Shown: one piece after another, positions 32,738 through 55,853 of the stretch | Layout of the letters: each line of letters opens with the position of its first letter | Position numbering within the stretch: the stretch's first letter is position 1 | Assembly (NCBI GenBank): GCA_914767715.1 | Contig: OU612071.1 | Location: 124,001 to 188,000, forward strand | Source: Membranipora membranacea | Taxonomy: Eukaryota > Bryozoa > Gymnolaemata > Cheilostomatida > Membraniporidae | Reading direction: 5' to 3' | DNA: 64,000 nt | The notes under the pieces: generated by a model | Databases searched by the model: none | What the model was told of the DNA's origin: nothing | What the model saw: only the letters and a program-made list of their open reading frames with translations | Made by a program: the position numbers and the translations under genes

Positions 32738-32815
32738 TTGTATTCCAGCAGCATGTAAAAATGGGAGTTGCCTTCATTTATGTGTGGTGGGGCAACTCCA
32801 AAGTAATACATGATG
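32738..32815. repeat. Dispersed repeat fragment shared with 9965-10035
   Basis: CATGTAAAAATGGGAGTTGC and the adjoining TTTATGTGTGGTGGGG block match the interior of the 9683-10397 TIR element. Confidence 0.7.
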
Positions 32816-32903
32816 CCTTTTAGAATCAGGGAGGGTGGGAGAGGTGGAGCTTGCATCCAACAAAATTGACCAATCAGAGCTCAGTATTTGCTCTCAATCC
32901 ATA

Positions 32904-32988
32904 CTTGCCAACCTGTACGCATAAAGTGTTTATGTGCGCTTATTTGACACTAATTGAGTTTTAAACGCGAAACGCTAGCTGAGAGCAT
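32904..32988. repeat. Dispersed 85-bp repeat shared with 58911-58995
   Basis: The two copies share TTATGTGCGCTTATTTGACA and neighbouring sequence with only a few differences. This copy immediately precedes the minisatellite. Confidence 0.85.
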
Positions 32989-32999
32989 GGAAGCGCGAC

Positions 33000-34430
33000 A
33001 ACTTGGCCCGAGCCAAACTTGGCCTGAGCCAAACTTGGCCCGAGCCAAACTTGGCCCGAGCCAAACTTGACCCGAGCCAAACTTGGCCCGGGCCAAACCT
33101 GGCCCGGGCCAAACTTGGCCCGAGCCAAACTTGGCCCGAGCCAAACTTGGCCCGAGCCAAACTTGGCCCGAGCCAAACTTGGCCCGAGCCAAACTTGGCC
33201 TCAATTAGTAAAACTTGGCCCCATGCAAGAAAACTTGGCCCCAAATATAAAACATGGCCCCAATTAGTGAAACCTGGCCCCAAGTACTGGAACTTGGCCC
33301 CAATTAGTAAAACCTGGCCCCAAGTACTGGAACTTGGCCCCAAATAGTAAAACTTGGCCCCAAATATGAAACTTGGCCCCAAATATGAAACTTGGCCCCA
33401 TATACTGAAATTTGGCCCCAATTAGTAAAACTTGGCCCAAATATGAAACTTGGCCCCAAATATGAAACTTGGCCCCATATACTGAAACATGGCCCCAAGT
33501 AGTAAATCTTGGCCCTCAGTACTGAAACTTGGCCCCAATTAGTAAAACTTGGCCCCATGCAATGAAACTTGGCCCCAAGTAGTAAAACTTGGCCCCAAAT
33601 ATAAAACTTGGCCCCAAATAGTAAAACTTGGCCCCAAATATGAAACTTGGCCCCATATACTGAAACTTGGCCCCAAGTAGTAAAACTTGGCCCTCAGTAC
33701 TGAAACTTGGCCTCAATTAGTAAAAATTGGCCCCGTGTAATGGAACTTGGCCCAAAGTAGTAAAACTTGGCCCTCAGTACTGAAACTTGGCCTCAATTAG
33801 TAAAAATTGGCCCCGTGCAATGGAACTTGGCCCCAAGTAGTAAAACTTGGCCCCAAATATAAAACTCGGCCCCAAGTAGTAAAACTTGGCCCCATATACT
33901 GAAACTTGGCCCCAAGTAGTAAAAATTGGCCCTCAGTACTGAAACTTGGCCTCAATTAGTAAAACTTGGCCCCATGCAATGAAACTTGGCCCCAAATATA
34001 AAACTCGGCCCCAAGTACTGAGACTTGGCCCCAATTAGTAAAACTAGGCCCCAAATATAAAACTTGGCCCCATGTACTGAAACTTGGCCCCAATTAGTAA
34101 AACTTGGCCCCTCATATAAAACTTGGCCCCATGGAATGAAACTTGGCCCCAATTAGTAAAGCTTGGCCCCGGTTAGTAAAACTTGGCCCCAAATATGAAA
34201 CTTGGCCCAATTAGTAAAACTAGGCCCCAAATATAAAACTTGGCCCCATGTACTGAAATTTGGCCCCAATTAGTAAAACTTGGCCCCTCATATAAAACTT
34301 GGCTCCACGGAATGAAACTTGGTCTCAATTATGAAATCTTGGCCCCAAATATAAGACTTGGCCCCATGAAATGAAACTTGGCCCCAAATAGTTAAACTTG
34401 GCCCATAATATAAAACCTAGCCCAAGGTGT
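33000..34430. repeat. ACTTGGCCCC minisatellite, 1.4 kb
   Basis: The first about 210 bases are a homogeneous 16-bp repeat (CCCGAGCCAAACTTGG). The array then changes to 18-21-bp units that keep AACTTGGCCCC and vary in a short middle (AATTAGTA, AAGTACTG, AAATATGA, ATGCAATG). Long apparent open frames in several phases are a by-product of the repeat period. Confidence 0.97.
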
Positions 34431-37364
34431 TGTACTTTCAATTAAAAAGAACAAACATAACAATGTTTCATTACAATTTCACATCGAGACAACAAAATGT
34501 TATAATATAATAAATGAATATAATAAGCACTATTTTAATATGTAATATCAAACTCTGTTTACAGGCCCGGGACTTCTTTGTTCCTCTTTCACAGTGAGAA
34601 GAGATGGAAACACTTTATAAAACCAGGATTCAACCAAAGTAAATTACGTTGACATCATATGTGCGCAGCAATTCCATTTTACATCTTGCATGAGATCAAG
34701 GAGACGTGACGGTAACTCCACCTGTTTGTGAGTGATAACTCTGGGTAATGAAGAATGGGCTGATCTTTTATATATCCGATATCAAAATATATGTTACCTC
34801 TCATGTTGTACGACGACTGGGGAAATTGATCTGCAAATCTGTTATAATATGACAGTGCATTATCATCCACTATTTAGGCTGTATTTAGTGATTGGTCATC
34901 CAAATCTGATATATGCTCTACTGGATACTTAATATCTTCCACTCCTGAGGTTGGATAGAGAACACTCAGTCCTGACAGACTATGAGCCCAATTGCTATGA
35001 ATGACACATTGCAACAGTTATGGGGATCTGACTAGCTATCAGCTTATCAGCTATATGTGATACCATAGTATCTTCCAATCACATAGGGTGATATCCAGAT
35101 TGATGGATGTAGATCCTCGGTAAGCCAATCTGCAATATGTGATACCGCAGTATCTTCTACTCTCATAGGGTTGTACAGCGATTGCTGGGTGCCAATCTGT
35201 TGAAGATTGTCTTGCTGCAAGTGGACTATAGTGTAGGAGTTTCTTGTACAAATTTTCACCTGCCCAGTTCCTATTATGAAAGACTGTTCTACAATATGAC
35301 CTGGCGATGCAGCTAATTAGTCACGTCATTGACACTATATTTTATATTTCTATTTCTATATTTTCATCTTGATAAAATGAGCTTCAATGTGGCATATATT
35401 AAGTATTACAGACAAAATCAACCTAAATAAATAGTCCATATAATAAGCTGCAATAAACATGAACATGCTAATTGTTTACGCATTTCTGGTCTGCTTACTG
35501 TATGTATATTTCTGGAGTTATCTGTGTTATGCTTATAAGAAGGCAATTCTGAATTCAAACAACAGCCACAGTATTTTGGTTTGTGATAATTGCATCATAC
35601 AATTTTTTGCAAACCTGTGAACTTGCCATGCCAACAAGGGTTACATATTGCTCATGTTTGCATGCTTACTCAGGAATGAAAGCTAAATGTGTTCTAACCA
35701 AGAGTTATTTACGGTTGATGGTGAAATGCAAATTTTTAAAATAAATGATCATGATGGTGATTTGTAAACAACACAAGGAATGATGAAAGTGATTTGTAGC
35801 TTAAAGTTTGGTTATTCATAGATCTATGCATTCTGATTGTAATGGCATGTTTCATTTCACCTTACATTATAAATGCAAAGTTGGCTGGACTCCATATATT
35901 ATAGTGCGTAGAGGCCTAACTCTGCAACCTAGCCACATCAGCATTTCAAGCCCTTTGAGAAATTTGTAGAGTATTATTATGTCAAAAAGTTATGTAAAGT
36001 TAAAACACACTCCATCTTGTTCTCACTGTCGACCTGGTACAGAAAATAAATGGAAAATATCAAACAGTTTATACGCGCAAAGTGTTGCTAGGGTTATCTG
36101 GTACCAAATGTTAACACCCAACTACTTGATGTAGTCAGTAGGATGCTTTCATTTTTCTTGTTATTCTATTCATTACTTGGGCAACATCCACTTCAGTAAA
36201 CAAACTATAATTATTCTTACTGGATTATATGCTTTGATTGTGTTATTTGGAGTTTTCATCTCATCTCCGAAAATATGACTACTCCTTTGGCTATCAGTTT
36301 CTATGAAATTTGGCCTTATAAGCTCCCCTATAATATTTAGCTAATCCATGAGAAAAAAAAACAGAAATTTGATAGTAGGGAGTTAATCATCTGACAGATT
36401 ATTGCATTTCTTATCAACAATTGACAATTGACACACTGAGAAAGAGGAGGTGAACTCTGGCTAGAGAGCAATATGGCAACCCTTAGGTGCCCTCGGAGAG
36501 GAATTAAGGTATGTATATTGAGACATTTCATTGTTAACATAAGTACCAGGACTATTCTGTGTCACAAAGATGTTGACATATGTAGTATATTATTCAATGA
36601 CTATGTTTTTGTCAAACATTAATCTTATCGCAGCATTAGCATAATACAATATACTGAATCGCATTACAACATATAATATATTCGGAAAAATATATAAACA
36701 TTTTCTGTCATTCTTCTTTCTATACCAGAAACTGGACACTCTGCGAGTTGAATATATTGATTATACTTGTCATTATTCCATATTTTGTGTTCTATTGTTT
36801 TAACTAGTGGCAAATAATTGTTTGAGGATCTAGTAAGAACATCTAGGTGCTTGATCTTGAGCTCAGCAGAATAAATTCTTTTCGGTCTTGAAGGATAAGA
36901 GTTTCATATGAGAATAACACTTAACACTTACACATACATCTTTCAACGTAACCTTGAGGGAGAAGAGCATTAACAAGAAAAATATTCTCCATTTCGCAAA
37001 ACTCCACAAGCAGTGTATTGGTGTTAGCTGCCAATAAGTCAAACTGAAACGAGCCTAACCTAGCTAAGATGCGATGTACATGATATCCTGTAGTGAGTAG
37101 AATGTGGAAAAGTAAAGTGATACCGTCTGGGAAAAATGATGTTAAGCGGTGAATTAATATATAGAAAATGTAAATCTACTAACTTTAATGACATATATAT
37201 ATATATATAATCGCATGTATAATTAATACCTTTGTACTCACTATCAGATGTTAACCCTGTTCTCATCCCAACCATGGTGAATGTAGATTGTATCCTACTT
37301 CAATGTCACTCTTGGTCGCATCATATCGGTTATAAATTAACTAATATTGGGTTTTGCATTTTAG
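34431..37364. other. No confirmed coding exon
   Basis: I see no repeat family or recognisable protein. An ATG-containing open segment at 36473-36508 ends in a good donor (AAG|GTATGT) and could be a first exon of the USP gene. Its phase does not fit the exon at 37365, so the real 5' end is unresolved. Confidence 0.4.
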
Positions 37365-40300
37365 ACAAGGACTGAGCAACAAATTTAACAACTGTTTCCT
37401 CAACTCTATTATTCAAGTCCTAAGGGAGACAAAAGCTATCAAGATGTGTTTGACTGAGGATCTTTGTAAAGGTGAGTTAACATATTATAACACCACATGT
37501 GTCAAGTTATCCTCACATTTTCGTGTGAGCTGATAACTCATAGTTTTTATATAAATGTGTGCGTACAATAAAAATTTAGACTTTTGAAAAAAGGAGAAAA
37601 ATGCGTCAAGAAATAAATCCAGAGAGATAGTATCTGCGATTCTGTGGCAAAGCAATATACACATAGTTGGACCTACAAATGATACAACACAATTATTTTT
37701 GTTTACCCGTTAAATCACTTAGGATGGTTAATTTATTTTACACTATACTATGTAAGGCGGCCGGTGAACCCAAATATAGGGATAAGACTGGTACATTACC
37801 CTCACTACCCATTTCATACTATTTTTCTAAACTCAGTTAATTTTTGAATAAGTTACTCATATTTATTCTTTAGCATATGTCATCATAATAATAAGGGGAA
37901 TTTATCATTCCTACAACATTGTACTCATCAATTCTATTTCAGATCTCGGTTCGCATTGTGCGTTGGCAGCTATTTATGGTGAATGGGAAATCATTATGCC
38001 TATGATGAAAGGTAATGTGTTTTTTCAGTGCACTAGATAGATAAGATAGACTGCAAACAGGTTTTGAAATTTTGTTACTTTAAACTTAGTTTATCTATAG
38101 CGCCTGTAATCTTGATCAGAAATTGTTTTTAAAACGAGCTTTTCAAGGAAAGTACTGTAAAATAACTTTTGGTTAACAACAACAGATGATCTTCAATGTG
38201 TTTTGTGTCTTTCAGAGTTGTTTCCAGTCATTGTAAATGGAAGACAGCAAGATGCTAGTGAGTTCTTTATCTTTTTAATGAATCATCTTAACGACCAGAC
38301 ATGCAACGGGTGAGTACTCTCAACATATTATTGGTTATCTAGAAAAAGATGTGGTGAAAACGAGGAATCTATGTGAAACAGACAGTCATAGCAGTAATAA
38401 AAAACTGCTACTCTCGACCACCTATTGTCTTGTCATATATTTATAGGGGTGATCACACAACAAGATTTGTATTGTGAGAGTACATGTACCAATAGTACTC
38501 AAAAGCCCGGAGAAGCAAGTTTTGTCTTGCATCTATTGGTTATCAAACATGCATGACTGACCATTTTTTTTCATCACTTTATTTTCATCAACGTCATCTT
38601 GTAAAGATGTTTTACATGATGCGACATAAAAAAAGGTTATTTAAAATTATATGGAGGTAGGAGTAGGAGGTCGCTCAGTTGGTTAGAGCGCCATCCCTTC
38701 AGTATGCAAATTTTTAAGGTCATGGGTTCGAATCCCGCTGGAGTCTACAGACTACTGGGTTTGGTTGGTCCCCAGGTGTGCTCCGACCTGCCTGCAAACT
38801 GAGAGCAGATGGGCGCAGGTATTGCAGCCTAGCCCCTAAGGCAACTAGTTTTTTCGCCGCCCATACTTCGGGATGTGGCGTCTGACATCTCATTTTGATC
38901 AACCTTTAATCGTATGTTTGATGAGCATTGTTTTAAAGTGTTCAAACTTGTCAACTCATCTGATATGGTAAGGTAAGCCATTGAGTTTGCTTGCAACTAC
39001 ATGATTTAGGTTGTCAAAAGGTACTTTTTTAAGTTTATCATCTCGTTTAGGAAATCTATTATCTACATTTACAAAGAAATCAGAAATGTATTGAGGTGAC
39101 AAATTATACATAACTTTGAATATGTATAGGTAGGTAAAGTGATTATTTAAGAGTGGTAACGGTAATATTTTTAAATGCGAACACATTTCGTTTGTTGATA
39201 TTAAATGATATGGTGTATGGTGAATATTGGCAATAATAGGCAATGCTCTTTTTTGTTGCAAAATAATGCGATCTGTGTATGTTGAGGGTGAAAGATTGTA
39301 GTAAATATGTATTCCGTATGTTAAATAGCAATGTATAAACAGATAATAGAAATGTTTGGCAGAGTAGGTGGTCAGATAGGGTGTGCATAATCACACTGAT
39401 CACGTGATATACTATTGCATGTATATCTCTGATCGATAGAGAGTGAATTAATTCACTTAGCTTGAGTGCAGCTGAATTTCAGTATTTAGGAGACGTGTGG
39501 ATGATTACCCAAACTTTTGAATATACACTTATCATTTTCTCATTCTTTGTTAAAATATTCTAATTTATATTTAGAAAATCTGATAATACCTTTTAACAGT
39601 TTTAGAAGAGCATTTAGCACATGTTTTTGACAAGAAAAGTGACATCGAAACTGTGTATTGCTAGCCTAAGCTCAGAAGAGAGAACTAACAATGCAGAGCT
39701 AGGTAATACTGTTTCGATCATGTCTCTTTGATAAAAATTAAAGTTGTCCTCTCTTTCAGCCAAATGTAGGTGCTCAATATTTGCGACAGAAGCTCTATCG
39801 ATCAGAGATACACATACTAATAGTGTAATCTCGAAATCAGTGTGGTGCATAATTATAAAAGATTAGGGTTTTTTAAACTTTCTCAAATACACTTTCACAG
39901 TGTATGGACCAGGTAAAATTGTCTGTTACATTGAACCCTAAAATGAATTAAATGAATAAAGTATCAAATAAATAAATGAATAAATAAATAAATAAATTAA
40001 ATAAATGAAGTAAACAAGATCTGAAACCTCTATGAGTATTTTGGATTTCTTGAATGGTTAATCCAGAGTGTGAGTGACTTTTGTAAATTGATCATGATGT
40101 AATGGATTGTTTCTTGAAAGTAATGAATTTGCTGACTTTTAAGAAATAAACATGTATTTTACAGACCATTACCGCTCAATACAATTGATTTTTATTCGCT
40201 ATTCCATTCAAGAGTTACAATGAACAATTATAAAATATCATAACGAACATCCACTTAACTCTAACCAGATAAAGCCTGCACTCCAAAAAGGACGAAGAGT

Positions 40301-42304
40301 TTTGTTTCAGTTTGTTTATGAGAGTTTCTAACAACAGAAATATTTATATATAATAAAGAGTGTAATTTGTATCTTTCAATAGATCATCCGATTTTATCTA
40401 CATTTTTGAATGGGTGATTGTGTGAGAGTAAATATAGTAAAACTCTATGGTTCTCATCATAATCTCTTTTCAGTGCGCACATATATAACTTGTTTGATAC
40501 AGTTATGCAGAGCTCTGTGAGATGTTGTGCCTGCAATCACACTAATGTTTTTGCAGAAAAATTTTTGTCTCTTCCGTTGAATGTCAAGGTGAGTTATGAG
40601 CGTGGAGCATTTCGTCGTTCATTGTATAAAAGGTATCATCAGAGAAATTTCAATGGGTTTTTCTGGACAGACACTGTCAATTACAGTTATTGTTTTGACC
40701 TTCTGTTAAGTGCCACAGGTTTGGTTGGCCTACCCAGTAGACAGTTAGTGAACTGCAACAAGTCTGAATTCATGTACCTTCAATAGGTGCATAACGAGAG
40801 GCAAGTGATCTACAGATTGGATCCACCTCTTACATCCAATGCTGTGCTTACACAATGCCTACAAATGATACTATTGCAATTTCAAGACACTGAGTATTGT
40901 TTATCAATACTGGTGTGATTGACTTCAGTCAGTGCTGCTGCACAATATCTGATAGTGTTGAGAAAATGAATAGAACAACAGTTTCCTGATTGCAACTCAA
41001 AATGTGTTTTGTTTACATTCATATTAACTTTTCAAAGGGGAGAGTTGACAGCACTAGCAATGCACTGAAGAGATTCTGTTCATCATCGATAAGGGATTAC
41101 GATTGCCCGAAGTAAGTGAATCTGAGCCTTGAAAAAAATTTTTGTAAACTGGATATGTCAATCTTATATCTGTGGGGTGTTCCAATAAATGATAAATAAC
41201 AATAAAAAATTTGTGTTGGTCATATGCATTGAATGAAAATTCAAACTACCTTAACCCTCCAGCAAATAAACATTTTTCCAGTACAGTTCATCTAATGCTG
41301 ATTGCTGCTGACAAAAATGATACTTTCTCATCCACTCTAGCCATTTTTGGAGCGACGCTGAGCAGATAAATATAATTTAACATTTCAGGCTCTAATTGTA
41401 AGGAGCGATATGTAATCTCAGACAATTTTGAATCATCAGAATATGATAAAGGGTTGAGTCCCAAGTGCATTTACTACCTGCCGTGCCAAGTTAAGATTAT
41501 AACTCACAAAAAACCCATTGCTTTTGCAGCTGTCCACTAAACACTACAGCAGAAAAGATATCAAGTTTTCTGAATTTACCAGACATTCTCGCAGTGACTT
41601 TCAACATCTGTGGCGCAAGTGAGAAAAAGAAGACCTTGATATCAATGCAGCAGAGGATTCAGATAACCGATGTATGTTATTCATTCAATTATGTTGAATA
41701 TTATTCATAGACTACATTTATATACCAGGAATTTCATGAGATACGATCAAAAGTTCCATCTCTCCAAATCACATTTTAAATGAAGCACAATGCACATCTA
41801 CGTACTGTGTAACTAGTTAATGAGCCATACACCGACACACTTATAATTTCAGAGACATGGTCATAGCAGAGGTTACACTCTTTATGCAGCAGTTGTACAC
41901 AAGGGAGCTGATCTGCATTCCGGGCACTACTACTCTATAGTCAAGCATAAGGGCCAATGGTTTGAGATAAATGATGAGAAGGTAAAAATACACTGCACTT
42001 GAAGCGCAGTTTTCAGATCTACGCTGCATGTTACATTTGGAATCAGACTGCACTTTATATATTAATACCCATTAATACCCATATATTAATACCCATTCAA
42101 TGCATAAACAGCATAAATAACCTGCTGGTGATATGATAATTCTGATATGCTAGCAAGGGAAAATCTTCAATCTCCTCATATAATTTTACCGAAGAGAACT
42201 TTGACTCAATATTATTTGTGTGTTTGCAGGTGTCAAAGATATCAGAGCTATCTCTGAAGCGCTCACATCCGTATATGCTCTTTTATGCACCAAACGACAC
42301 ACAG
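37365..42304 (+). CDS. USP-family deubiquitinase catalytic domain (exon chain start)
   Basis: Exons: 37365-37471, 37943-38011, 38216-38309, 40474-40588, 40787-40912, 41038-41111, 41530-41671, 41853-41981 and 42230-42304. All phases agree. The Cys box is GLSNKFNNCFLNSIIQVL (catalytic Cys in NNC). The QQD box is GRQQDASEFFIFLMNHL. The zinc finger is CCAC ... CPNC. The His box is YTLYAAVVHKGADLHSGHYY, followed by WFEINDEKV (catalytic Asp) and PYMLFYAP. This is a complete peptidase C19 domain of about 310 residues with the Cys-His-Asp triad intact, so it is predicted to cleave ubiquitin from proteins. The start codon is not resolved. The chain continues in phase into the linker and FLYWCH exons, suggesting one large fusion protein. 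Confidence 0.9.
38661..38885 (+). repeat. tRNA-derived SINE in a USP intron
   Basis: Box A (GGTCGCTCAGTTGGTTAGAG) and box B (GGGTTCGAATCCC) are well kept and about 35 bases apart. A non-tRNA body of about 140 bases follows. The acceptor stem does not pair and the sequence runs on past the T arm, so it is a SINE, not a tRNA gene. Confidence 0.7.
38905..39440 (-). pseudogene. Non-LTR reverse transcriptase C-terminal relic in a USP intron
   Basis: The minus-strand translation in two frames gives HCYLTYGIHIYYNLSPS-like and QKRALPIIANIHHTPYH, then HLKILPLPLLNNHFTYLYIF and KLNGLPYHIR. This is the end of a LINE reverse transcriptase after the catalytic core. A frameshift lies near 39250. It abuts the SINE in opposite orientation. 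Confidence 0.7.
39949..40012. repeat. (AAAT)n microsatellite
   Basis: AATAAATAAATGAATAAATA-type repeats occur in the same intron. It may be an A-rich retroelement tail. Confidence 0.85.
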
Positions 42305-42819
42305 GTACCCAAAGATGATTGTTAAAAAAATCTTTCTTTACTTTCGGCCGATATCTTGTTAATTGAATTAAAAAATGTACATGGATATGGAAAGCAATTC
42401 ATTGTCGGTGTTAGTGGAATAACTGCCGCTTACACTTCTTATAAGTACACATCCAACACTGAGATAATGTGCATAAAAAATTCATTAGCTCACTTTATTG
42501 GTTGGTGAGCAAGAGCATCAAAAATAAACGTTTAATTATGTGACACCTTTTTGCTTTACATTTTTTCTGTCCATGACGTTTGAAATTGTTAATGAAAGAA
42601 GCCAGATAGATGAGATCTTGGTGCAAAACTGAAAAGTAATACAACAGTTACAATCATAGGATTTAAGTAACTCCATAGATCATAATTATTTGTAAATTTT
42701 TAGAACATTTCTTAAAGGTCGCACAGCTAGGAAGGCCACTAAGTGTTCAAACAGAAGAAATAGCAAGCAATCTAGAGCCCAAGAATGATTGACAAAGCTG
42801 ACCATTTCTAGAGTCACAG

Positions 42820-45800
42820 GGAGTAGTCTCAGGAAGGAAATCTGCCAAAGCACAAACTCAAACACAGCTTTCAAGAGAAGCAGCACATCCTAAAGTCGAT
42901 CATGCACAAGAAATGGGAATTATTGGAGACAGGCAAATACATCAGCCAAGCATAACAGAGACCAGCCAAAATCTCATGGTCGCCACCCAGCAACACGGCT
43001 CACAGGTCAAGGTTCCCAGAGATAAGACGTTCACAGCAAAGAGACACTTGGATGAAACCATGGGCAACTGCTTTCAAGTTCTTGCTCCTCCGATTGAAGC
43101 AAAGAAACAGAAACATGGCAATCAAAACATTACAGCTGCAGAGGATGCTCAGAGGAAACAAGACAAGGTTGGGCCAGCTAGCGTGGGAAAAAAACAACTT
43201 CCAACACTACCATCAGAGACAACTGGCAACAATAGCAGCATTAGCATGTTTTTAGAAGATGACGAAAGCCAGAGAGAGGATCAATATGTATTTTTTGAAA
43301 ACAGTCTTGAAGACAGTCAGATTCATACAGATTCGGACAACCTGCTTCTACAGATTCAGAGAGCTGCAGGTAATTCACAAATATACCCAATGCCTTCACA
43401 GAGCGAATTTGCAAGGGAGAGCACTGAGGAGCATGCGCTCCTAGAATCAGGATACAGCCTATATAACAGGTCTCTGCCTACTACCTCAAGTAAACCTGCA
43501 CCAGTAGAACCAGCAAAAAACCAGCCAATATCGTCACAGGGAACTATATTACAGAGAGTTGACCAAGTATCAGAAACTAATGACATGCATGCTCGGACTC
43601 ATTCTGGGGATCCCAAGTCAGGCAACTTAGTGTTCAAATCAGCGCTGATATCACAGATATATGACAACAACATGATCAGGAGTGGCAGGGAGGGGCAGTC
43701 AATAGGAGGTGAAGATTATCCTAGCTTAATCAATCAGATAGCCTCAGCCGGAAAGCTTGCAATCCAACACTGCAAACCAACAGTAAAGTCAGCCTTGAGC
43801 GTAATTTGCCGCCCATACAAATATGCTGTACGATCTACAACAACAGCACTGTAAGCAAATTTTGAATCAATCATTGATGTTTCAATTTTAATACTTTTCA
43901 ATGGACAAGGAAGTTATGTTCATATTACAGTCAGGGGCGTATATTCTAAAAAATTTCACTCACTGACTTTTCAGAGATGAGCATAATAATCGGGCGCAGC
44001 CCGATCCACACGCCGTAGGCGTGGCGGGGAGGGGGTGGGAGGGGCGCTTAAGCGCCTTCCCACCACGGAAATTTTTGCATATCGGTAGCAAAATAGTGCA
44101 AGCAGAGAGGTATTTCAATAGCTCACTGAGCTGTTGGGTACTTTCAGGAAACAACTCAATAGCAGTAGAAGATTACGGTAAAAATGCTCCAGTTATAATG
44201 CACCCATTTGAAAAAAAAACTGACCTTGATGGGATTAGAACCCACAACAATCTTATTCCAGTGATTATAAGGCAGACGCTCTACACACTGAGCTATTCAG
44301 CCACTCACGGAAATCTGTGGGCCGTGAGTGCTAATATACGCCACTGATTACAGTAGCTGAGTGTCTAGTGATAAAATTAATTCTATAAATGTTCTATTAT
44401 TTAGTAAATGCAAATACAATAATCCATACATAATGCATGTGCATAGCTATGTACCTTAATTCAACAGCAGTTCAGGATGTCCTAAATATTGTCATTGATG
44501 TTATGGAAGTTCAAGAAAAATCTTACACAATTTGAAAGTTATGCTTCTTTTTCACAAGGTATAGGAAAACCCATACACTCATACCAACTGGTACAATGAC
44601 TGAAACACAGGATGACACCGGTAAGTAACCAATTAATTGATTTAATAGTAGGATGCAAAATTTACCATTATTGAATTTTGATTCATACTTTGCAGAATCA
44701 TTTTCTGTTGACGGTGAATAATATGTTTAACTGTACTGTTTACTGCCTCTTTGCCTACTAGCTGTTCATCTGAATATCTTATTCTGTCCTTTCAATAGGA
44801 AAAGAAAAGAAACACGAATTTGATAATCAACACGTCATTGCAGATCTTCATGATGCAAACACTGATCTGGAAATTTGGCGTTATCAAGATTCATCACCCT
44901 ACTCAGATTTACATGAAACAGACGAAACAATGTAAGTGCATAATCTGCTATTGATTGTATTGAAATTTTAAAAGAAAATAAACAACCTTCAGAATAGGAT
45001 CATTAGTTGTAATTATCCGCTTTGCTGTGAGATGCTTGTTCATCTAAATTAAGGATATTATTTTATAGGTTAGCCGAGACCAACAGTTTCTCAGGATACA
45101 GCTCAGAAGCAACTGGAGGTATTTCTCTTAGCAAACCGCAGTTACTCATGATTTGGTTATTCTATCCTCCTATATCCATCTTGATTTTCAACCAAACTAT
45201 GAGCATAAAATAAAGCAACATGAGCGGTTGTCACAGCACTTCTTTTTAGGGTCATTATATGAGTCAAAACTATGAAAGTTACTTGAAGAACTGAAGTCAT
45301 CTGAACAACTGTATTGAAAATGTTTGCCATGTAGATGCAGGACAGGATGGTTTTTCATTCGTATCAGCAAGAACTAAGGTGAAACAAGACCAATCTCCAA
45401 ATATTCCTAAACACAAAGAACTGTCTGGTACGTTCAATGACTGGTGGAAGAAGGAAACTTTATTGTAATAAAAGATTAGACCATAACTGCAATGACCTCA
45501 TCTTTTTGCACAGTTTTCAATAGATATTAAAACTTACATGATGTTTGGTTTTATTTATAACATTGATATGTATCATTACATTATCGTAACTGTATATAAG
45601 TCAATGACATTGGCTCATTGATCAATTTATAACTTTCTACAAATAGGTTTGGCTGCAAAGACAGGTTCTTTTGTTGAAGCGACAAGTCACAGACAAATCA
45701 AAGCAACAACTAGACAACGTGGAGGTATTAAATTTGTTATTTTGTTTATCACAGATAAAAAAGCTCTTTGGATCACGGGCTCTGTCAAGTGAACAGTATG

Positions 45801-45979
45801 GGTAGACCTGTCTGATGAGCAAGTCAGTTTCTAAGACATGATATTGTTTTATGTAAATCTTTCAATTTGTCCTGTTTTATTCTTTTTTCCAATATTGTCA
45901 ATTGCACCAGAATCTCTTTCATAGAAAAAGAAAAAGATGCAATGCAACTATCGGAGGAGGCCAGACTTGACGATGATAG
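42820..45979 (+). CDS. Polar linker exons between USP and FLYWCH domains
   Basis: Exons: about 42820-43850, 44559-44620, 44799-44931, 45069-45118, 45335-45427, 45647-45724 and 45925-45979. Each has AG/GT borders, and successive phases (2,1,2,1,1,1,2) match through to the FLYWCH exon at 46623. The 1-kb exon is rich in Gln, Ser, Asn and Lys, with no recognisable fold, and looks disordered. The small exons encode acidic/polar pieces such as DLHDANTDLEIWRYQDS. The acceptor of the first exon was chosen at CAG|GGA for phase 0; frames further upstream contain stops. Tandem short phase-1 exons are typical of alternatively spliced linkers. Confidence 0.7.
43932..44346. mobile_element. hAT-type MITE carrying a tRNA-like module
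   Basis: The ends CAGGGGCGTATATT and AATATACGCCACTG are inverted, with the CAGNGGCGTA signature of hAT elements. The flanks are an exact 8-bp duplication, ATTACAGT (43924-43931, 44347-44354). The interior has three GC-rich small palindromes (GGGCGCAGCCCG, CACGCCGTAGGCGTG, GGCGCTTAAGCGCC). On the minus strand at about 44219-44302 is a tRNA-like sequence with box A (TAGCTCAGTGTGTAGAGCG) and box B (GGGTTCTAATCCC). It lies in a linker intron of the USP-FLYWCH gene. Confidence 0.88.
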
Positions 45980-46094
45980 GTAAAAATGTTGAGAAACATC
46001 ATTTTCTAAATGTCTGTAACATATATTATAATCGCTGACAAGAAGATTCAACAAGGATTCAGCATCAGGATCTAGCTTTAGTAATACTTTAATA

Positions 46095-46421
46095 CCTCAT
46101 TTATAAGGCACCGGCCTTATAAGTGAAGCACCTTCCTTGGAAAATTTAAAAATGCTTCAGTTATGTGGCACCCCACAGCTACAAGGCATCCCTTTGGAAA
46201 AAAAACTGACCTCGATCGGATCCAAACCCACAACATTGTGTTCACGCGGTAGGCGCTCTGTCTACTGAGCTATGCAGCTTTCCTTTTCAAACCAACGTTT
46301 TGGTCTAAGTCAAATATAAAGATGCTTCAAATAGGTGCTATAGATGCTATAATATAGGCGCATATTATGCTCCACTCTCTAAGGCGCCTTCACCTATAAG
46401 GCACGGGCCTTATAGGTGAGG
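46095..46421. mobile_element. TA-flanked TIR element with the same tRNA-like module
   Basis: The terminal inverted repeats of about 45 bp begin CCTCA(T/C)(T/C)TATAAGGC, and each end holds its own palindrome (ATAAGGCACCGGCCTTAT). TA dinucleotides flank both ends. The interior minus strand has a tRNA-like block (TAGCTCAGTAGACAGAGCGC ... GGGTTTGGATCC). Together with an A-rich GAAAAAAAACTGACCT block, it matches the module in the 43932-44346 element. Whether TA is the true duplication is uncertain. Confidence 0.7.
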
Positions 46422-46622
46422 TATAGCGGTAATATTGTCACTATTCTCGGGTCAGAGCAGTTGCTCACAGGCAAAACACAAAAGCGTTGCAGAATCTTCA
46501 TACTTTGTCAGAGTGGAAAATTAATTATCCTTATCATAGCTTCATAAATACAAAAAATGATTAAACAGCTAAATCCTACGCACATACATACTGCATAACA
46601 TATATCATAATGCACATTTCAG

Positions 46623-47401
46623 GCAATGTATAGATATAGTTATCGATGGTCGGAGATTTGCGTTAGTGAGAGCAGCGACCCAGCGCAAAGGGGATTGCTT
46701 AATCGATCGACATCTAGGACATCGCTATGTTAAGAAGAACAGGGATTGTGAGGTACTTCAGCGACATCCAACTACCGAACATAAACATATTTTCCTGATT
46801 TTGGAATAAGCTGCCAATAAAATGCAACTGACAAATTTAATAATAAAACCATGAATTGTACTGAAATTGTCTGCTGGCTTGACATGACTACTGTATACTT
46901 TCCTGATCTCTTGATAGGAAGTGGTAGTTTCATGGCGTTGTGCGAGGTATGGCAAGCCAACAAAGTGTAAAGCAATGGTGAAAGAGTCGAATGGAGCATT
47001 CAATATAAGTAGAGGGGATCACAATCATCCTGCCTATAGGAAACCACTAGAAGGTGCTCGCATCGCTAGAGAGGTATGGTAGTTGACACTATAGGCAAAC
47101 TATAAAGTTTGTCTGCTCTCTGACATTAATAATCTATGAATGTTACAGATTACTTGCATTGAAACAGATGTGTTTATCTGATAGTGTGATGTTTGTTTAT
47201 TGATTCTACCAGGCAGAAAAGTCAGTAAATGAGGATACGTTTGCCCCGACATCAACAATTATTGTTGATAGGGCTGTTAAGAACATTTATGAAGAAACTG
47301 CAGTTATACCCCAAGCCGCAAATCGCAGAAACTTGCGCCGTTTGATACAAAGGAGAAGGGCCAACACAGTACAGTCACAGCCAGCCAACTTAAGTTTTGA
47401 G
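46623..47401 (+). CDS. FLYWCH zinc-finger exons of the USP-MULE chain
   Basis: Exons: 46623-46752, 46918-47073 and 47213-47401, all phase-consistent with the preceding linker exon. The translation has RRFALVRAATQRKGDCLIDR, HRYVKKN, WRCARYGKPTKCKA and GDHNHPAY. This is the F...W..C...C...HxH pattern of a FLYWCH zinc finger, the DNA-binding module usual at the N-terminus of animal MULE transposases. The third exon (AEKSVNEDTFAPTSTIIVD, RRNLRRLIQRRRA) fits the linker between FLYWCH and the transposase core. Confidence 0.85.
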
Positions 47402-47448
47402 GTATATGGCTCATCAAAAGAATTGGTATAGAATTATGCATGTTACAC

Positions 47449-47811
47449 TTACTCAGGATGAAATGTGTTAGTCAATAGAGGTGTCATATTATGTGCATAG
47501 TTGCTCTTGCTTTGCAGAGAGACTGTTTTGAAATTGAATTGTTTACCAAACTTGAGCATTGCTGTGTCTGTAGGTCTTAACAAGCTGATCAACAATGTTT
47601 GAAAATCTTTTTCCCAACGATTTATAACAGGCGGCTCACAAACCACAAGTTTATGTTCAACTTGGTTTCCATCAACATTAAAAAGATTTATATCTAATTC
47701 TGCACAGTTACTCATTTGACAATGTTTTATCTTTAAGATGCCTAACTCCCCCGGATTCCTGGTTGGAGATGTGAGAGGGCCATCAGGGGGCAGAGCACTC
47801 ATTTTTGCCAC
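47449..47811 (-). other. Unrecognised 120-residue minus-strand open frame
   Basis: This is an uninterrupted open frame antisense in the FLYWCH-to-MULE intron region, with no motif I recognise. The plus strand at about 47970-48115 is also open (KFEMTIIEGTIATEPE) and may be an exon. The 47.40-48.25 kb gap is where the part of the transposase before the first catalytic Asp should lie, and I could not place it. Confidence 0.3.
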
Positions 47812-48268
47812 GAATAGGCAGCTCAGACTTCTTACAAACTCGGAAATATGGTAGTTTGAGTGTTACTGCAAAGTAACAATGCAGATATATTTTATAGTCA
47901 GATCTCATAATACGGAACGTTATAATACCGAAATACCGATGGTGTATCTTGCTATGCAAATCAACCAGACCGAGGGCAGGAAGCACCAAAGTTTGAAATG
48001 ACAATAATTGAAGGAACCATTGCCACCGAACCTGAGTCTAGGAATTCAAGTGGTTCACTGTTGTCTGTAGAAGAGAATCACTACATTGTATGGGATGCGT
48101 GGGCCTTGGTAATTTAGAAAATCATCCTGTCTCAACAAACAGCATCTATCGATGCAGCCGGCCAAATATTGAATTTGCATGTTTGCAGGTCTTCTTCCTT
48201 TTGTCACCTCTTTTCATAATATTGTTGTATTTTCAATATATTATTTTCTTTCTTCAGCATGACTAATT

Positions 48269-50581
48269 TCAATTGTAGGGGTATAGATGGAACCTTCAAG
48301 ACAGTTGTCAAACCTTTCCAACAACTTCTGACAATAAACTGCTTTGTTAGAACAGCCAATGGGGGAAAGCAACTACCCTCCGTATATGTCCTTATGTCTT
48401 CAAAGCAGCAGGCAGACTATTTGATGGTTAGATATCCTGATTAATTAGCGACAGGTCACCCACTGATCAGACTATCTCGTTTAAGATCACGCCATTATTA
48501 ATTGCAAACCAGTTAATATGTTAAAGTTGAACTAAAATTATTCAGAAATTTCTCCTGTGCAGGTCGTCAAGTGGTTACCTGATCCTATTCTTAACTACTT
48601 TCCTCGGATTTGGCAATTGAAGAGCCTCACTTTAATGACCATGCTAATTATTCTCTATAGCAGGATTGATCGCTTGCGTGTAAGACACTTTGGTCTGTGG
48701 CTGACTTTCAGATTTAATGTAGAGGAAGTAGGATTTTTTTGCAATTGTTGACATTTTTTTCCTTTAACGATTAACCTCTCCAAACTAGTAGCTTGGTATC
48801 AAATAATTCTTGACATCTTCTAATATAATTACTATACTATTCCACTGTATTTATTTGAGACTGTGTGTTTAAATTCGGGTTTGGTGTATTTTAAAGAATG
48901 CCTGACTGCTTTCCAATTATATTTTCCATTATGCCTTCTTGTAGGTGTTCAATGAGTTAAAGAAAATTGCCAATCTCAATGTTCAAACCATCATCATCGA
49001 TTTTGAGAAAGGTACACAATTAAATTGTTCGTGAAAGAATATCATAACACACCTGACTGAGCTGTAAATCTTCTCATTTGTCTGTTTAGGGATCTGGACT
49101 GCTGCTTCAGCAGCGTTTCAAGGAGTACATATAGTCGGATGTAAAATTTGAAATACAAACTGTAAATTTTAATTCACAAGATGTCAATAATGAAGCCTCG
49201 TTTTGGGGTTTGTTAATTGAGGGCAACTTCTTCATTTTTTCTTGGTACATATACGCTTTTATTGGCAATCTACAATCATCTTTATGAATGTTTTTCACGC
49301 AGTGATAGAACAATTAACATGGTAGTGTTTTGCAATGTTGTGTTTGTTCTGTGTAGAATTTCCTTGACCAATCCTCCGATTTGTATCAAACAAAAGACAT
49401 TTATTGCCTTGTGCACAGTCGTATCATAAAAAATCTTCTCATTTGTCTGTTTAGGGATCTGGACTGCTGCTTCAGCAGCGTTTCAAGGAGTACATATAGT
49501 CGGATGTAATTTCCATTTCCAGAAATGCATCTGGCGCAGGGTGCAAAAGCTTGGTAAGAAGTCAACGTTATGCATAAATAACTATGACTTTGATTAATAA
49601 TAATATTATGATTATAAATATGCAATAAACCGATATATTAATAATATATTAAATATCGAATTTTAACTTCTTATGAAGTTATTTAGTCATAATTGAGAAA
49701 GCACAAAAAGTCATCGCCGAGTTTCTCTACAAGGTTAGTAACCACGAAAAAAGAAAAACTTTATACTAGCATAACTTCTCACATCAGCTCAACCTCAAAA
49801 ACTTGATAGTGCATGGTTAATGTTACAGGTCTCGCATCAGGCTATCGCCATCACCACAACACTCGTCGTGTTTGTGGGTTTCTGTGGGGGCTCTCCTACC
49901 TACCAGTCCACTTGATTCAGGAAGCTTATCGCTATGTGGTTGCGGAGAACAACGAGCCTCACTTTAGGCAGTTGTTTGAGTATTTTGAGATTACATGGCT
50001 CAATGGAAGATTTGAGCCAAAATTCTGGAGTGTGTATCGACAGGCGATAAGGACAAATAACTCTCTGGAAGGTAACTGTCATTCAATTTCACAATTCGTT
50101 TAAGGTTGTTCATATTTGAACAAAAACCTTGTAAAGCAATCTTCACTTGATCAGAAAGGTTCATCACTCAGTATGCAATGAGCAACAACCAACATTTTGT
50201 TTCTGTGTTACAAAAATCTATGCTTTAAATCATAAAGTTAAAGCTATAGTAGCGCCTTTTGGTATATGACATATTGCTTAGGTAGTAGAAGAATTGCTAA
50301 TAGCATGACAATGAAAATTTACTTGAATGAAGCTCATCGGTACAACTGAATTCATAGGCTATCTAAAATATTGCCACAAGTCCTATTGGAGGTATCTGGT
50401 TAATCAAGAGACAGTGCTCTTGATTAGCCCAAGACATCCAATATGATACCAAATATTGGGAGGCGTTACTATAGCTTGAAAGTAAATAATAATCACAGGC
50501 TTCTTTAAAACAGGAGCTATGTGTGCCTATTGAATAATATTGTTTCCGTTTTCAGGCTGGCATAACAAGTTTAATCGCCAG
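48269..50581 (+). CDS. MULE transposase core exons with D, D, E residues
   Basis: Exons: about 48269-48426, 48563-about 48680, 48945-49011, 49455-49553, 49829-50071 and 50556-50581. The first Asp is in GIDGTFKTVVKPFQQLLTIN. The second is in NLNVQTIIIDFEKG. The region GVHIVGCNFHFQKCIWRRVQ gives the CxxH-like motif. The Glu is in TNNSLEGWHNKFNR. These are the Mutator-like DDE-transposase landmarks in order, so catalytic residues appear kept. The exon at 48563 (VVKWLPD...) has an uncertain 3' border, and the join from 47401 is not resolved. It could be a domesticated transposase fused to the deubiquitinase, or an active MULE that has captured a USP gene. Confidence 0.8.
49090..49143 (+). pseudogene. 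Duplicate of MULE exon, truncated
   Basis: Positions 49066-49146, including the acceptor TCTGTTTAG and the coding block GIWTAASAAFQGVHIVGC, are repeated almost exactly at 49431-49508. Only the second copy continues in frame (NFHFQKCIW...) to a donor. The first runs into AT-rich sequence and a stop. Confidence 0.8.
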
Positions 50582-50633
50582 GTGAGAGTCGATAAGCCCC
50601 CAGGGAGATATAAACCCTCTTAAAGGGGAGGCA

Positions 50634-51200
50634 ATGTTATATATGCCATGCCTTAACGATGACAGTTAATTAGTCTGCTAACAGACATCACAGGATGTGA
50701 TGTCAGATTCTTTTTGTTCTTTTATAATGACCACAATGCAGTGGCTATTTCCTTTCTATGTAAACCATGCTAACAGTAAGATGCCTCTGCTAGATGCTCC
50801 CAATAAAATATCGTAAAACATCCCCAACACACAAACTTAATACTCGCCTTAATGGGGAGTTAGAAATTCAAACCCCTGCCATTACAGCCACTAGGTCGAA
50901 GGAAAAATTTTCCCCAAAGAGAGCCAACAACTGTAGAGGGGAGAGGTCAATGTTAACCACAGGTGTTAACCTGTGGAATTTACACCTACTGGGGGAGGAG
51001 AGGGCGGCTCCTTCTGCTTTGCGTGGGAGGTTGGCGTCCTCGCTGTGGGGGTGTGGTTAGCTTCTTGTTGAGTAGCCTTCGTTTTCATGATAATCGGATG
51101 GTCGCCATACTAGTCCTGGACTAATCTGACCATGCCGCTGCCTTATTTTATTTCACTATTTTAGTCCTTTGATTTTAATTACAATAAATTGTTGCAAAAA
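50634..51200. other. Possible LTR-retroelement fragment
   Basis: A purine-rich tract (AAAGGGGAGGCAA) is followed by TGTTATATATGCCATGCC, resembling a polypurine tract and LTR start, and an AATAAA lies near 51183. No second LTR or duplication is visible. It may interrupt the MULE C-terminal coding region, since the frame reads through the 50581 donor for 14 codons. Confidence 0.25.
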
Positions 51201-51359
51201 CCAAAAAAATGACTGGATGAGGTCATGTTGATGTTCCAGGTAAGAGGGACACGTGCGATTAATTACAGCTTCGCGAAGGAAAACTGTTTGTTTAGTGGTC
51301 TACGTTCCGCCCATTTATAGTAAGCGGCTTATAATTACACGCTACAACGCTTCTCGCAG

Positions 51360-52188
51360 CAGATTATACTAGATAAACCTGTGCCAGTTATAAAGCAGTT
51401 ATCAACAGGTGCAAAATCAATCAAATACCTAGCCCGGATTATGTTATATCTGGTCATGCTTAAAACTAAACATCCCCTATATTTTGAAACACAGGATGGT
51501 ACAGGAAATATTGAACAATTTGTACAGATGGTAATGGGACTGGCGCTACTTCCACCTGAGGGAGTGGTTCCAGCACTAGGTTGGCTAAGAGAAATGGCAA
51601 AGTCAGCCCCTGCCGAAGAATTGTTGTTGTATTATGAATATGTTTGGAGATGGAAGCCAACAGAGGTTTCAGTAAAGATACGTGCCAATAATGACTTGGA
51701 AGGTAGGGAAAATCCAAGGATCATCAAAGGGCATGCAACGCATGTTTACAATGCTTGTTGCGTATTCATCCACAATGTTTTTTATGTCTTTCCAAAAAAA
51801 TGATTTGAGTTGTTTATTTTCTTACTGAGCACATTTCAGATCAACACAATAATAGTATTTAGCATCTTTTCTAACAATGCTGAAGTAATTGAGGACCTGA
51901 CAATCTGCCTGTGTGTTGGTATTACTAATTTTGTGATTCACTGCCAATCTTCATATTGCCATTTGGTTGTATTATCCCTCCACAGGCTACCACAAACGGC
52001 TGAATGACCTAACCAAAGCAAAAGCAATCACATGGAAGCTTATGGCAAGGCTTGCTTTAGAGGCAAAGGAGGCCATGAAACAGGTGCAGCTGGTGAAGGT
52101 GGGAGAGGCCACCAGGATAAGGAATAAACGTTTTTTTTATCAGCCTTTGATAAATTTAATCGTACGAAAAACCTCAAAGACCTACTAG
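51360..52188 (+). CDS. Second MULE-like C-terminal module
   Basis: The exon 51360-51703 (acceptor CGCAG|CAG, phase 0) encodes MVMGLALLPPEGVVPALGWL, YYEYVWRWKPTEVSVKIR and ANNDLEG. It joins in phase to 51986-52188 (GYHKRLNDLTKAKAITWKLM ... stop TAG). It parallels the preceding module (GLSYLPVHLIQEAYRY ... TNNSLEGWHNKFNR) in order and spacing, but is clearly diverged. The acceptor phase also matches the 50581 donor, so it could be the 3' end of the same transcript. Alternatively it is the relic of a second, older MULE. Confidence 0.6.
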
Positions 52189-53168
52189 GGTTCATTGCAA
52201 TCAGGCTGATGAGATAGGCATATCTGCAATTGCGATAGAAGAAGCGGAATATGATTAGTGAAACCTCACTGCATGTTACACTGGTGTAAACTACATCGAG
52301 AAATGTACTATGAAAACAAACACATTCTGCACGTAAGTTAGACACCCTTGCATTTACATAGTATTTTATTGTCCTAAGCCATGTCAACTGTTACATTTAT
52401 TTCTATAAGGTTACAGTTTACTTGGCTTTGTTGACTTGTTGTTTTACAGAGCTTTCAGGACTGGAAGAACTCGAAAGTAAAAATTTTGTTTAAAATCAAA
52501 ATTTAAAAATCAAGTGTTTTCCCAAAAAACATAAGTCTGTTGATGTTACTTGTTTTATATATGCTTTGTGACTTGGAGAGCTCAAAAATCATACTTGGCT
52601 GCTTTTTTGAAAAATTTGAAAACTTGAGTTTTAAAAACTTTTTCCCAAAATCTTAAGTTTTTTCCCTAAAACTTAAATTTGTTGACTTAATTCGTTTTAA
52701 GAGGTTTTGGGACTTGGAGAACTCAAAAATCATGCTGGGCCGTTTTTTTTTAAAGTTTTAAATCTTAAGTTTTTTCCCAAAAACTTAAGTTTTTTTTCCC
52801 AAAACTTAAGGTTTTTTCCCTAAAACTTAAATTTGTTGACTTAACTCATTTTTTAGAGGTTTTGAGACTTTGAGAACTCATAAATCATGCAGGGCCGTTT
52901 TTCACCGCGGGCCGTTTTGGGCCGCGGGCCGTTTTGGGCTGCGGGCCGTTTTGGGCTGCAGGCCGTTTTGGGCGTTTTCCATCAAAGATTGTAAAGAATC
53001 CCTAGATTCATTCATATTGAAACAGTGAAGGTTTGAGAAAAGGATACTGATCGCATCACAATACCAAATGAGTGAAAATTCACTGTTTGAGTGGGCAGAT
53101 TGCCTCACAGGTAAAGCTACAGGTCAAAACAGATCTTGAATCATTACCTGCCCTACCGTCTGATTGGT
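52189..53168. repeat. T-rich low-complexity and GGCCGTTTT repeats
   Basis: Three spaced copies of a GACTTGGAGAACTCAAAAATCA block (about 52570, 52700, 52866) alternate with runs of TTTTTTCCCAAAACTTAAG. Then comes a 17-18-bp tandem repeat, GGGCCGTTTTGGGC(T/C)GC, at 52903-52977. No coding exon is seen. Confidence 0.75.
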
Positions 53169-55853
53169 TGTGGTGGATAGCTGGACATTTAAAATTTTAT
53201 TTTACATGCTTTATTATTATTATTATTAGTTCTTCCCATCTCATCATTATTAGTAAATTTTCTAATTTTAACTCATACAAGCCATCTATGTAATTTTACA
53301 TTGAAAATTTCCACAGTTAGTACCAATGGTTGGTATCACATGACCTACTATGCTTTTTTAACTAAACACAGTGGAATAAGTTCCTCCCAGTTAGTATTTT
53401 GCAGCTGAAGAACAAATAAGGTAATGATCGTCCAAATCCCTCCCCCCCCCTCGATTTGTCTTGCAAGATAAATAGGGTTACTACATTGTCTATATCCCTT
53501 CCCTTCCCTGCCATTTGTCTGGCCAGATAAATAAGGCTACCATCTTTGTCCATAGCTCCACCCCCCCCCCCCCCAAGGCCAGCCCCGAAGTCAGGCAGTG
53601 ATATTTCCAGATGAGATAGAGTCGGCGTACTTGTTACCTTTCCCTCAGATAGAGTCGGCATACTCGGTATATTCACAGGCAGACAGAGTCGGCATACTTG
53701 ATACATTTCCACTTAGATAGAGTTGGCGTAATCGTGTTAGAGAGTCGGCGTACTCAGCATAAATAGGCAAGGTACGTGGTTGCAGTGGCGCGTATCGCCG
53801 CCTTAGGGTAACCCCCCCCCCTAAAAACCTCTACAATGGTTGCAGCAGAGGGATCTGCTGGGGACATGCGCAGTCTGACAAAACAGTCTACATGGCAACT
53901 GTGTTAAAGGTAGGGGAGGGTGCCAGCAGGGCGCAAGGGTCAACAAGGCCGTCAACAGACTCGTTGCTCTTCAGGGTGAGACACTTATTGATAATCTCTA
54001 TAGAAGCAACTGGTACAAAGCCCCATGTACCATGTCCAAACGAGCTTTTCTCTTACAACTACACTCCATGCTGGAAGGGAGGGCTGCCGAAATTGGAAGA
54101 GGATCAATCGGTGATTTAATCTCTGTTGGACTCGTGCAATTTGGTCTTACGCTGCAATGTGCCCAGATTAAGTATATGAGAAGTGGAGGATCAAAGCCCA
54201 CCCTCTGTTCCAAAAATTACAGAAAGAAGCTGAGAGCAAGTCATAGTAGCACTCAAAAGCATTCACACTACAGAACCTGCCCTAGTCAGCCCATCCCCTC
54301 TATCACTAGCCGGCGGAACCCCACTATCCCTGTTCAGCCATCCCTCCCTCCCCAAATGTAAGAATCTAATAGTCCAAGCCCAAACCCCCGAATGAAATAA
54401 GACTCCTCAGGCTAGTTCGCTTCATAAACACGATGAGCTTATGCTGGAAGGGAGACTTCACAGCTCCACTATATTCACTGAATTTGCACTCTGATGAATG
54501 AAGGAAGTCAGACCAGAAATGCCATTCTCTACACACGCCCGCCCCAAAGGAATCCTGGTCTAGTGAGATGTACAAATTGACTCATATAACCGTTACCATT
54601 AAGACTCAAACTCTTATGTGGCAACTCCCAACCCATCACCGTTCCAGTCCTTGACCTTAAAATCTTACCAATACCACTGCTTGACCCAATATAAGTAGGG
54701 GCTGTCCAACCCAAACCCCTAATAATGCCCACAATTCCCTCACATGTCCAGCCGTTATACAAATAAGCCTGTGGAGTTTGCCAAAGCTCAATTGATTAGC
54801 TCAAAGACGCCAACCTCCTGACCCAATACCAGTAGGCGACGTCCAAATCCAGTCCATCATGCTGCCCACAATCTTCTCACATATCCAGCCCTTATACAAT
54901 AAAGCCTACGGAGTTTGCCTAGGCCAAAGTGACAAGTTCCAGGACACTAACAGCCTGATCCAAATATGTAGGCGGTGTCTCCAACCCCCCATACTGCCCA
55001 CAAGCCCATACTTGTCCAATCCTAATACAATGAAGCCTGTGGAGTTTGCCAAAGCCTAAGTGACTAGCTCTAGGACGCTAAAATACTGTCCCAATACACT
55101 ACTGTGTTTAGCCGGAATGAAAATATACAAACACCTCATTACCATACTCCCTGTTACCCAACCTGTCTACAAGAGGCCAAGTTAAAATCAGCATTATTGT
55201 CCCTGTGAGGCACCAATTCTCTCAATGTGCTCGCCCCCAGTCTCCCTGTCCCATTCATGGCCTTTCTTAAAGCCCCTACCACAACCCCTACTGCCGATGG
55301 CCTGTCCAAAACCCCATACCGCCCGTACCCTCTGATCCACAGACAGCTCTACGGACATACTAAACGGTAGCGTACAATGGCAGAGGACACCTTAAGACAG
55401 ATAGAAGAACAGTACCAACAGATGCAAGACAGAGACAAAGAAAATAAGAAAAGTTAGAAGGGAGAGTGTGGGGGATTTTCCACCACTGCTGGACATTTGA
55501 AATTTATTTTACATCCTTTCTTATTATTATTAGTTGTCTTCCCATCTCATCATTATTAGTAACTTTTCTAATTTTAACTCATACAAGCCATCTATGGAAT
55601 TTTCCATGGCAAATTTCCACGATAGTGTCACATGACCTACAGAGTACTCGTTACCTTCCCCCTCAGATAGAGTCGGCGTACTCGGTATATTCACAGGCAG
55701 ACAGAGTCAGCATATTCGATACAGTTCCACTTAGATAGAGTCTGCGTAATCGTGTTGGAGAGTCAGCGTACTCAGCATAAATAGGCAATGTACGTGGTTG
55801 CAGTGGCGGTTGTCGTCGCATTAGGGTAACCCCCCCCCCTAAAATCCTCTACA
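53169..55853 (+). mobile_element. Non-autonomous LTR retrotransposon
   Basis: The 5' LTR is about 53169-53835 and the 3' LTR is 55467-55853. Both read TGTGG... to ...CCTCTACA (TG..CA ends) and share GCTGGACATTT, CATACAAGCCATCTATG and GTGGTTGCAGTGGCG blocks. The 3' LTR follows a purine tract (AAGTTAGAAGGGAGAG), as a polypurine primer should. TGGT flanks both outer ends, a possible 4-bp duplication. The 1.6-kb interior has no reverse transcriptase, protease or integrase; only small motif-free open frames are seen (for example 54032-54361, and 55378-55458 encoding a short QQMQDRDKE-rich peptide). The LTRs contain tandem AGATAGAGTCGGCGTACTCG repeats. Confidence 0.72.

Follow-up and report, generated by a model that had tools for sequence, protein, structure and literature searches.

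A ubiquitin-specific protease next to a FLYWCH-MULE gene in Membranipora membranacea: one open exon chain but probably two proteins

Transposases encoded together with deubiquitinase- or SUMO-protease-type domains have been described in diverse transposons. The accessible sections of PMC2836005 report the Ovarian Tumour (OTU) and Ulp1 domains on Ginger1, Ulp1 on Mutator elements and OTU on Helitrons, as well as a Trichomonas protein combining transposase_11 with Peptidase C19. In addition, Table 1 of PMC6446971, the portion of that article relied on here, lists the OTU domain in MuDR-6_HM, a Mutator-like element (MULE), SET in Phytophthora MULEs and PHD in Rehavkus, and the sections of PMC10027918 considered here present species-specific animal FLYWCH factors which arose from Mutator transposons and are proposed as domesticated. 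In the window analyzed here (64,000 nucleotides of the bryozoan Membranipora membranacea, contig OU612071.1, positions 124,001 to 188,000), Pfam searches of the spliced translation identify a ubiquitin-specific protease (USP) domain, a FLYWCH finger and the core of a MULE transposase, which follow each other on the + strand within 37365-50581 in splice-compatible phase. We propose that the USP and the FLYWCH-MULE part are probably not made as one polypeptide and represent either neighbouring genes or a fusion that is now split.

Like the MULEs bearing Ulp1 or OTU, Ginger1 and the Trichomonas protein, this locus brings a protease-type domain together with a transposase, whereas here it is a C19 protease, the USP, that stands beside a MULE, and a single coding chain is unproven (PMC2836005 and PMC6446971, for the sections cited). 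An earlier note on this DNA had stated that some MULEs carry Ulp1-type proteases, and that a C19 protease joined to FLYWCH-MULE was not known to be described. No description of a USP joined to FLYWCH-MULE was found in the open-licence literature searched, but the Trichomonas protein, together with OTU or Ulp1 on several transposon groups, makes the novelty smaller than supposed. With OTU, Ulp1 and C19 already reported on transposons in these sections, a USP beside or on FLYWCH-MULE would extend the known transposase-protease pairings. Regarding the transposon-derived animal FLYWCH factors, the likeness lies in a FLYWCH gene of Mutator origin; "ubiquitin" has zero occurrences in the main text of PMC10027918, where no deubiquitinase is mentioned.

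By predicted splicing, 24 GT-AG exons can be joined in phase into 1159 codons with no stop. Since Pfam, run on the + strand frames of 37000-54000 before splicing, returns UCH as its sole match (E=2.1e-6), the FLYWCH and MULE domains are detectable after splicing only. To remain free of stops, the chain requires donor 42304 (91.0 percentile) and acceptor 42820 (83.0 percentile) at the passage from the USP to a polar linker; these percentiles are leave-one-out values against all GT or AG sites, and were preferred to an earlier ranking without leave-one-out that put this junction worst, a verdict which leave-one-out softened. Composition, however, puts the change from an intron-like to an exon-like character at 42717 with order 1 and at 42720 with order 2, coinciding with another acceptor, 42718 (cttaaag/GTC; 90.3 percentile). 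This acceptor is in phase 0 relative to the USP and lies in the linker frame. As a change point, 42820 is poorer than 42718 by 21.0 (order 1) or 17.7 (order 2) bits, and its use would place about 100 nt of exon-like sequence within the intron; 86-nt intron windows as exon-like as 42704-42789 amount to 2.1% (order 1, n=1057) or 0.95% (order 2, n=1052). Read from 42718, the linker frame hits a TGA at 42790-42792 and a second one at 42799-42801, so that change point, frame test and translation together delimit an exon-like stretch at 42718-42801 (+ strand) ending in two stops. Continuity of coding from the USP into the linker is unproven: it is open via 42820 and cut by two TGAs via 42718.

Three considerations favour separate products. 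The TGAs at 42790 and 42799 fall in the very exon that composition favours, and the acceptor that avoids them is the one leaving exon-like sequence in the intron and marking the poorer change point. Moreover, the USP fold is complete at 42304, read-through of its last exon (42305-42325, + strand) gives VPKDDC and then TAA, the stop being at 42323, and position 42523 carries an AATAAA, as adjacent genes would show, this last signal being weak among the 40 AATAAA/ATTAAA sites of 36001-54000. In this scheme, the USP part would terminate at 42323 or at 42790, and FLYWCH-MULE, with a long polar N-terminal region, would be made separately, either as a neighbouring gene or as the downstream half of a former fusion. 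Two other routes through the junction were tried and rejected. A 69-nt mini-intron enclosing the TGAs (42743-42811) has its donor at the 36th percentile and lies in an exon-like stretch, and an exon starting at 42704 meets an immediate TAA when spliced to 42304, despite the top acceptor score of the four tried (95.9 percentile). The earlier note had described one exon chain, with seven polar linker exons running in matching phase from the USP to FLYWCH. An open, in-phase chain does exist via 42820, but its passage from USP to linker is not confirmed, given the two in-frame TGAs of the exon that starts at 42718. If there is no fusion, the locus serves as a caution that in-phase exon chains can span neighbouring genes in compact genomes.

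Several observations nevertheless weigh against separate products. The fully open 24-exon chain exists in the first place, and the scores of its critical junction, though low, overlap those of sites accepted elsewhere in the chain (acceptors 41038 and 44559 at 75.9 and 70.6; donors 47850 and 48426 at 81.0 and 84.2). In a composition-controlled frame test, both 42718-42789 (3.0 vs -5.6 and -0.7) and 42802-42912 (1.9 vs -3.0 and -11.3) score best in the linker frame, and this frame, on either flank of the TGAs, is in phase with the USP, as one gene would show. Upon calibration with 93-nt coding pieces, all drawn from the training sequence itself, the test favoured the own frame in 87% of 60, and with intron pieces it favoured frame 0 in 32% of 209; it is noisy, the linker frame having been chosen in two of the four 93-nt linker pieces of 42913-43284.

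It is hence possible, though in our view doubtful, that a single gene encodes a USP-linker-FLYWCH-MULE protein through a splice that joins 42304 to 42820 and so leaves out both TGAs while keeping the phase. Such a protein might act, with the same doubt, as a DNA-targeted deubiquitinase removing ubiquitin from chromatin proteins at the sites where FLYWCH/MULE binds. Beyond its 1159 open codons in 24 in-phase exons and the frame preference on both flanks of the TGAs, this reading gains from six short linker exons that exceed shuffled sequence (see below) and from the transposon-protease combinations reported in the accessible sections of PMC2836005. Acceptor 42820 is, however, middling and discordant with composition. 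In addition, no match to the USP-FLYWCH-MULE architecture at full length was found at E<=1e-3 among 6741 candidates, in a search that detects only proteins sharing 5-residue words with the query and measuring 0.55-1.75x its length, over a database which may be poor in animal proteins; for the long linker exon, none of 1249 candidates proved homologous at E<=1. Scans of viral_contigs and genome_contigs gave no confirmed relative. Were the fusion real, it would tie a C19 deubiquitinase to a FLYWCH-MULE DNA-binding module, alongside the known Ulp1- and OTU-bearing transposons, and would offer a natural model for site-directed deubiquitination of chromatin.

Within the separate-products reading, a rather unlikely sub-case is that of a once-fused gene now decaying, with the two TGAs and a partial exon duplication at 49066-49144 as early lesions. 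The continuation of the frame across the TGAs, in a test that is noisy, hints that a single gene may formerly have existed, and the duplication, an identical 79-bp direct repeat, copies an acceptor without its donor. On the other hand, 891 codons downstream of the USP-linker junction can be read without a stop, although the chain was selected for openness. Less likely still would be one gene with a splice switch, in which acceptor 42718 yields a free USP ending at TGA 42790 and acceptor 42820 yields the USP-linker-FLYWCH-MULE fusion; the two acceptors are 102 nt (34 codons) apart and in the same phase, and 42820 bypasses both TGAs.

The USP catalytic domain (UCH, peptidase C19) is encoded on the + strand at 37365-42304 by eight in-phase exons (37365-37471, 37943-38011, 38216-38309, 40474-40588, 41038-41111, 41530-41671, 41853-41981 and 42230-42304). 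Its spliced translation matches UCH with E=1e-34 and 120.7 bits (cut-off 23.9) over positions 2-254 of the 254-position profile, and alignment to USP21 locates the catalytic Cys (NNCFLNS), His (HSGHYYS) and Asp (EINDEK). Nine USP exons with an intact triad had been announced in the earlier note: the triad stands, but eight exons were found. We guess that the ninth was an open stretch near 41389, which was rejected because it would break the phase; with that stretch omitted, CPNC forms the second zinc pair, and the domain has both of its CxxC pairs, CCAC and CPNC. A search of PDB sequences returned USP21, USP36 and USP2, which share the USP domain, the aligned Cys, His and Asp and both CxxC pairs. 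The resemblance is distant (best E=3.8e-15), and the catalytic Cys of the bryozoan domain lies in NKFNNC. The usual motif before the catalytic Cys of USPs is N-x-G-x-x-C, with a Gly expected. The USP part may be an enzymatically active deubiquitinase, its activity being not assured because NKFNNC stands in place of this motif. No convincing initiator exon of the USP was found by an automatic chain search upstream. Run downstream, the same search threaded implausible exons through repeats, which reveals a scorer biased by composition that prefers GC-rich sequence.

Between the USP and the FLYWCH finger, the + strand accommodates seven polar linker exons whose frames are open and join in phase. 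The long one (42820-43850; acceptor at the 83rd and donor at the 82nd percentile) lies in an open frame of 350 codons (42802-43854), and six short ones follow at 44559-44620, 44799-44931, 45069-45118, 45335-45427, 45647-45724 and 45925-45979. The six-exon chain 44559-45979 scores 32.1. When 43851-46622 was shuffled 100 times by dinucleotides, the best chain of every shuffle stayed below this, reaching at most 24.7 if the start phase was fixed and 29.6 if any start was allowed. Exon 44559-44620 by itself scores -2.5. Since the top chain of the real region reaches 64.1 and is partly different, including a GC-rich block at 43975-44109, and since the scorer prefers GC-rich sequence, the boundaries of the linker exons are uncertain. 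The linker is without Pfam match at E<=1. Two copies of a 60-nt repeat, 82% similar, lie in introns, one between linker exons (44190-44249) and one before the FLYWCH exon (46176-46235).

Downstream, a FLYWCH finger and a MULE domain share a single open spliced frame on the + strand, predicted to comprise nine exons and eight introns with no stop. The finger itself occupies two exons (46623-46752 and 46918-47073; Pfam E=1.9e-5, 25.2 bits vs a cut-off of 23.6) and not the three previously assigned to FLYWCH. Seven exons form the MULE transposase region (47213-47401, 47738-47850, 48279-48426, 48945-49011, 49455-49553, 49829-50071 and 50556-50581), as delineated by Pfam (E=1.3e-12, 48.5 bits vs a cut-off of 27.6) and by alignment to eight relatives. 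The chain was first thought to be splice-compatible as it stood, but a direct join of 47401 to 48279 was rejected for mismatched phases; the added exon 47738-47850 mends the phase and supplies the stretch ahead of the first catalytic D. The MULE core exons with D, D and E landmarks are borne out by the Pfam match and by D199, D264, C285, H288 and E381, which are invariant in the FLYWCH-MULE part and its eight relatives (nine sequences). We take E381 to be the catalytic E of the MULE core. Among the 34 columns identical in all relatives with a letter there (at least six of the eight), 26 are kept and eight changed, three of the latter being gaps. The closest relative found (P0001, 649 aa, on a 2154-base contig) is 34% identical over 96% of the FLYWCH-MULE part, with MULE above the cut-off and FLYWCH just below it (21.7 vs 23.6 bits). 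It differs by an N-terminal PHD-like match (20.5 bits, cut-off 24) without USP, by a C-terminal tail and by being one unbroken open reading frame. In full-length relatives the transposase tail comes after EGWHN, and no such tail was found downstream of EGWHNKFNRQ in the present gene. Of note, the duplication at 49066-49144 (+ strand) is identical to 49431-49509, at a distance of 365 bp, and contains the acceptor of exon 49455-49553 along with the beginning of that exon, but no donor; its use would read into a stop, and it is presumably a recent event. A second, different MULE-like C-terminal piece (..RANNDLEG/YHKRLN..) was judged by eye to span two exons at 51324-52134 (+ strand). This piece does not carry on in phase from the first MULE; Pfam gave it no match above the cut-off, and its tblastn match is weak (E=1.3).

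Compared with the FLYWCH-MULE transposases of Phantom and other Mutator-like groups (PMC6446971, for the sections cited), the gene shares the FLYWCH finger and the MULE DDE core, as well as the invariant D, D, C, H and E columns seen with the eight relatives, whereas it has eight introns, a USP upstream, and neither a tail nor a convincing pair of terminal inverted repeats (TIRs) with target-site duplications (TSDs). Such repeats, for which the earlier note had suggested a search around 36-53 kb, were sought as an exact TSD of 8-11 bp with a 24-nt TIR of at least 15 matches. No pair was found between 34424-37364 or 42326-46622 and 50582-57000, a search that TIR-less MULEs or ends beyond the window could escape; only in the widest range (30000-37364 vs 50582-64000) did pairs occur, two in number, each scoring the minimum that was accepted (15/24) and with no shuffle comparison. 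An inverted-repeat search of 34000-56000 returned six pairs, of which 34438-34460/50708-50730, outside the whole chain (23 nt, 78%, A+T-rich), and 38712-38732/54642-54662, with one arm within the USP part (21 nt, 81%), were not accepted as TIRs. In addition, tblastn of the chain against the window matches its own exons and the partial copy 49066-49144 only.

For lack of a convincing TIR/TSD pair and of a tail, and with eight introns and matches to itself alone in the window, the FLYWCH-MULE part most likely represents a transposase gene that was exapted, is immobile and would act as a chromatin or transcription factor, most likely binding DNA via its FLYWCH finger. Its nine stop-free exons and the invariant D199, D264, C285, H288 and E381 also speak for a functional protein of this kind. 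The retained catalytic residues weigh against this view inasmuch as they would also fit a live transposase. Between the two fates envisaged by the earlier note, the domesticated one suits the FLYWCH-MULE part, but a transposon with its own deubiquitinase is disfavoured. A mobile MULE carrying its own USP is highly improbable, for although the core keeps its acidic residues, a second MULE-like piece lies at 51324-52134 (by eye; tblastn E=1.3) and other MULEs carry Ulp1 or OTU in the sections cited above, the two nearer ranges hold no TIR/TSD pair and the widest only two of lowest score, the tail was not found, eight introns interrupt the FLYWCH-MULE part alone and the chain has no other match in the window than its own exons and one partial copy.

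The window as a whole is eukaryotic in look, given its introns of the GT-AG type and the presence of reverse transcriptase and THAP domains and of ankyrin arrays. The THAP domain, another transposon-type zinc finger, lies at 14835-15188 on the - strand (E=2e-13), and an open frame of 956 codons at 20051-22918 (- strand) contains TPR repeats and a DUF294 nucleotidyltransferase match. The ankyrin-repeat frame at 30479-31876 (- strand) is made of a 117-bp tandem repeat in 10.6 copies, and tandem arrays of 16, 20 and 59 bp adjoin it (33000-34423). Finally, two reverse transcriptase domains and one endonuclease/exonuclease/phosphatase domain, at 25746-26711 (- strand), 23532-24416 (+ strand) and 60173-60898 (+ strand), are probably pieces of LINE-type retrotransposons.

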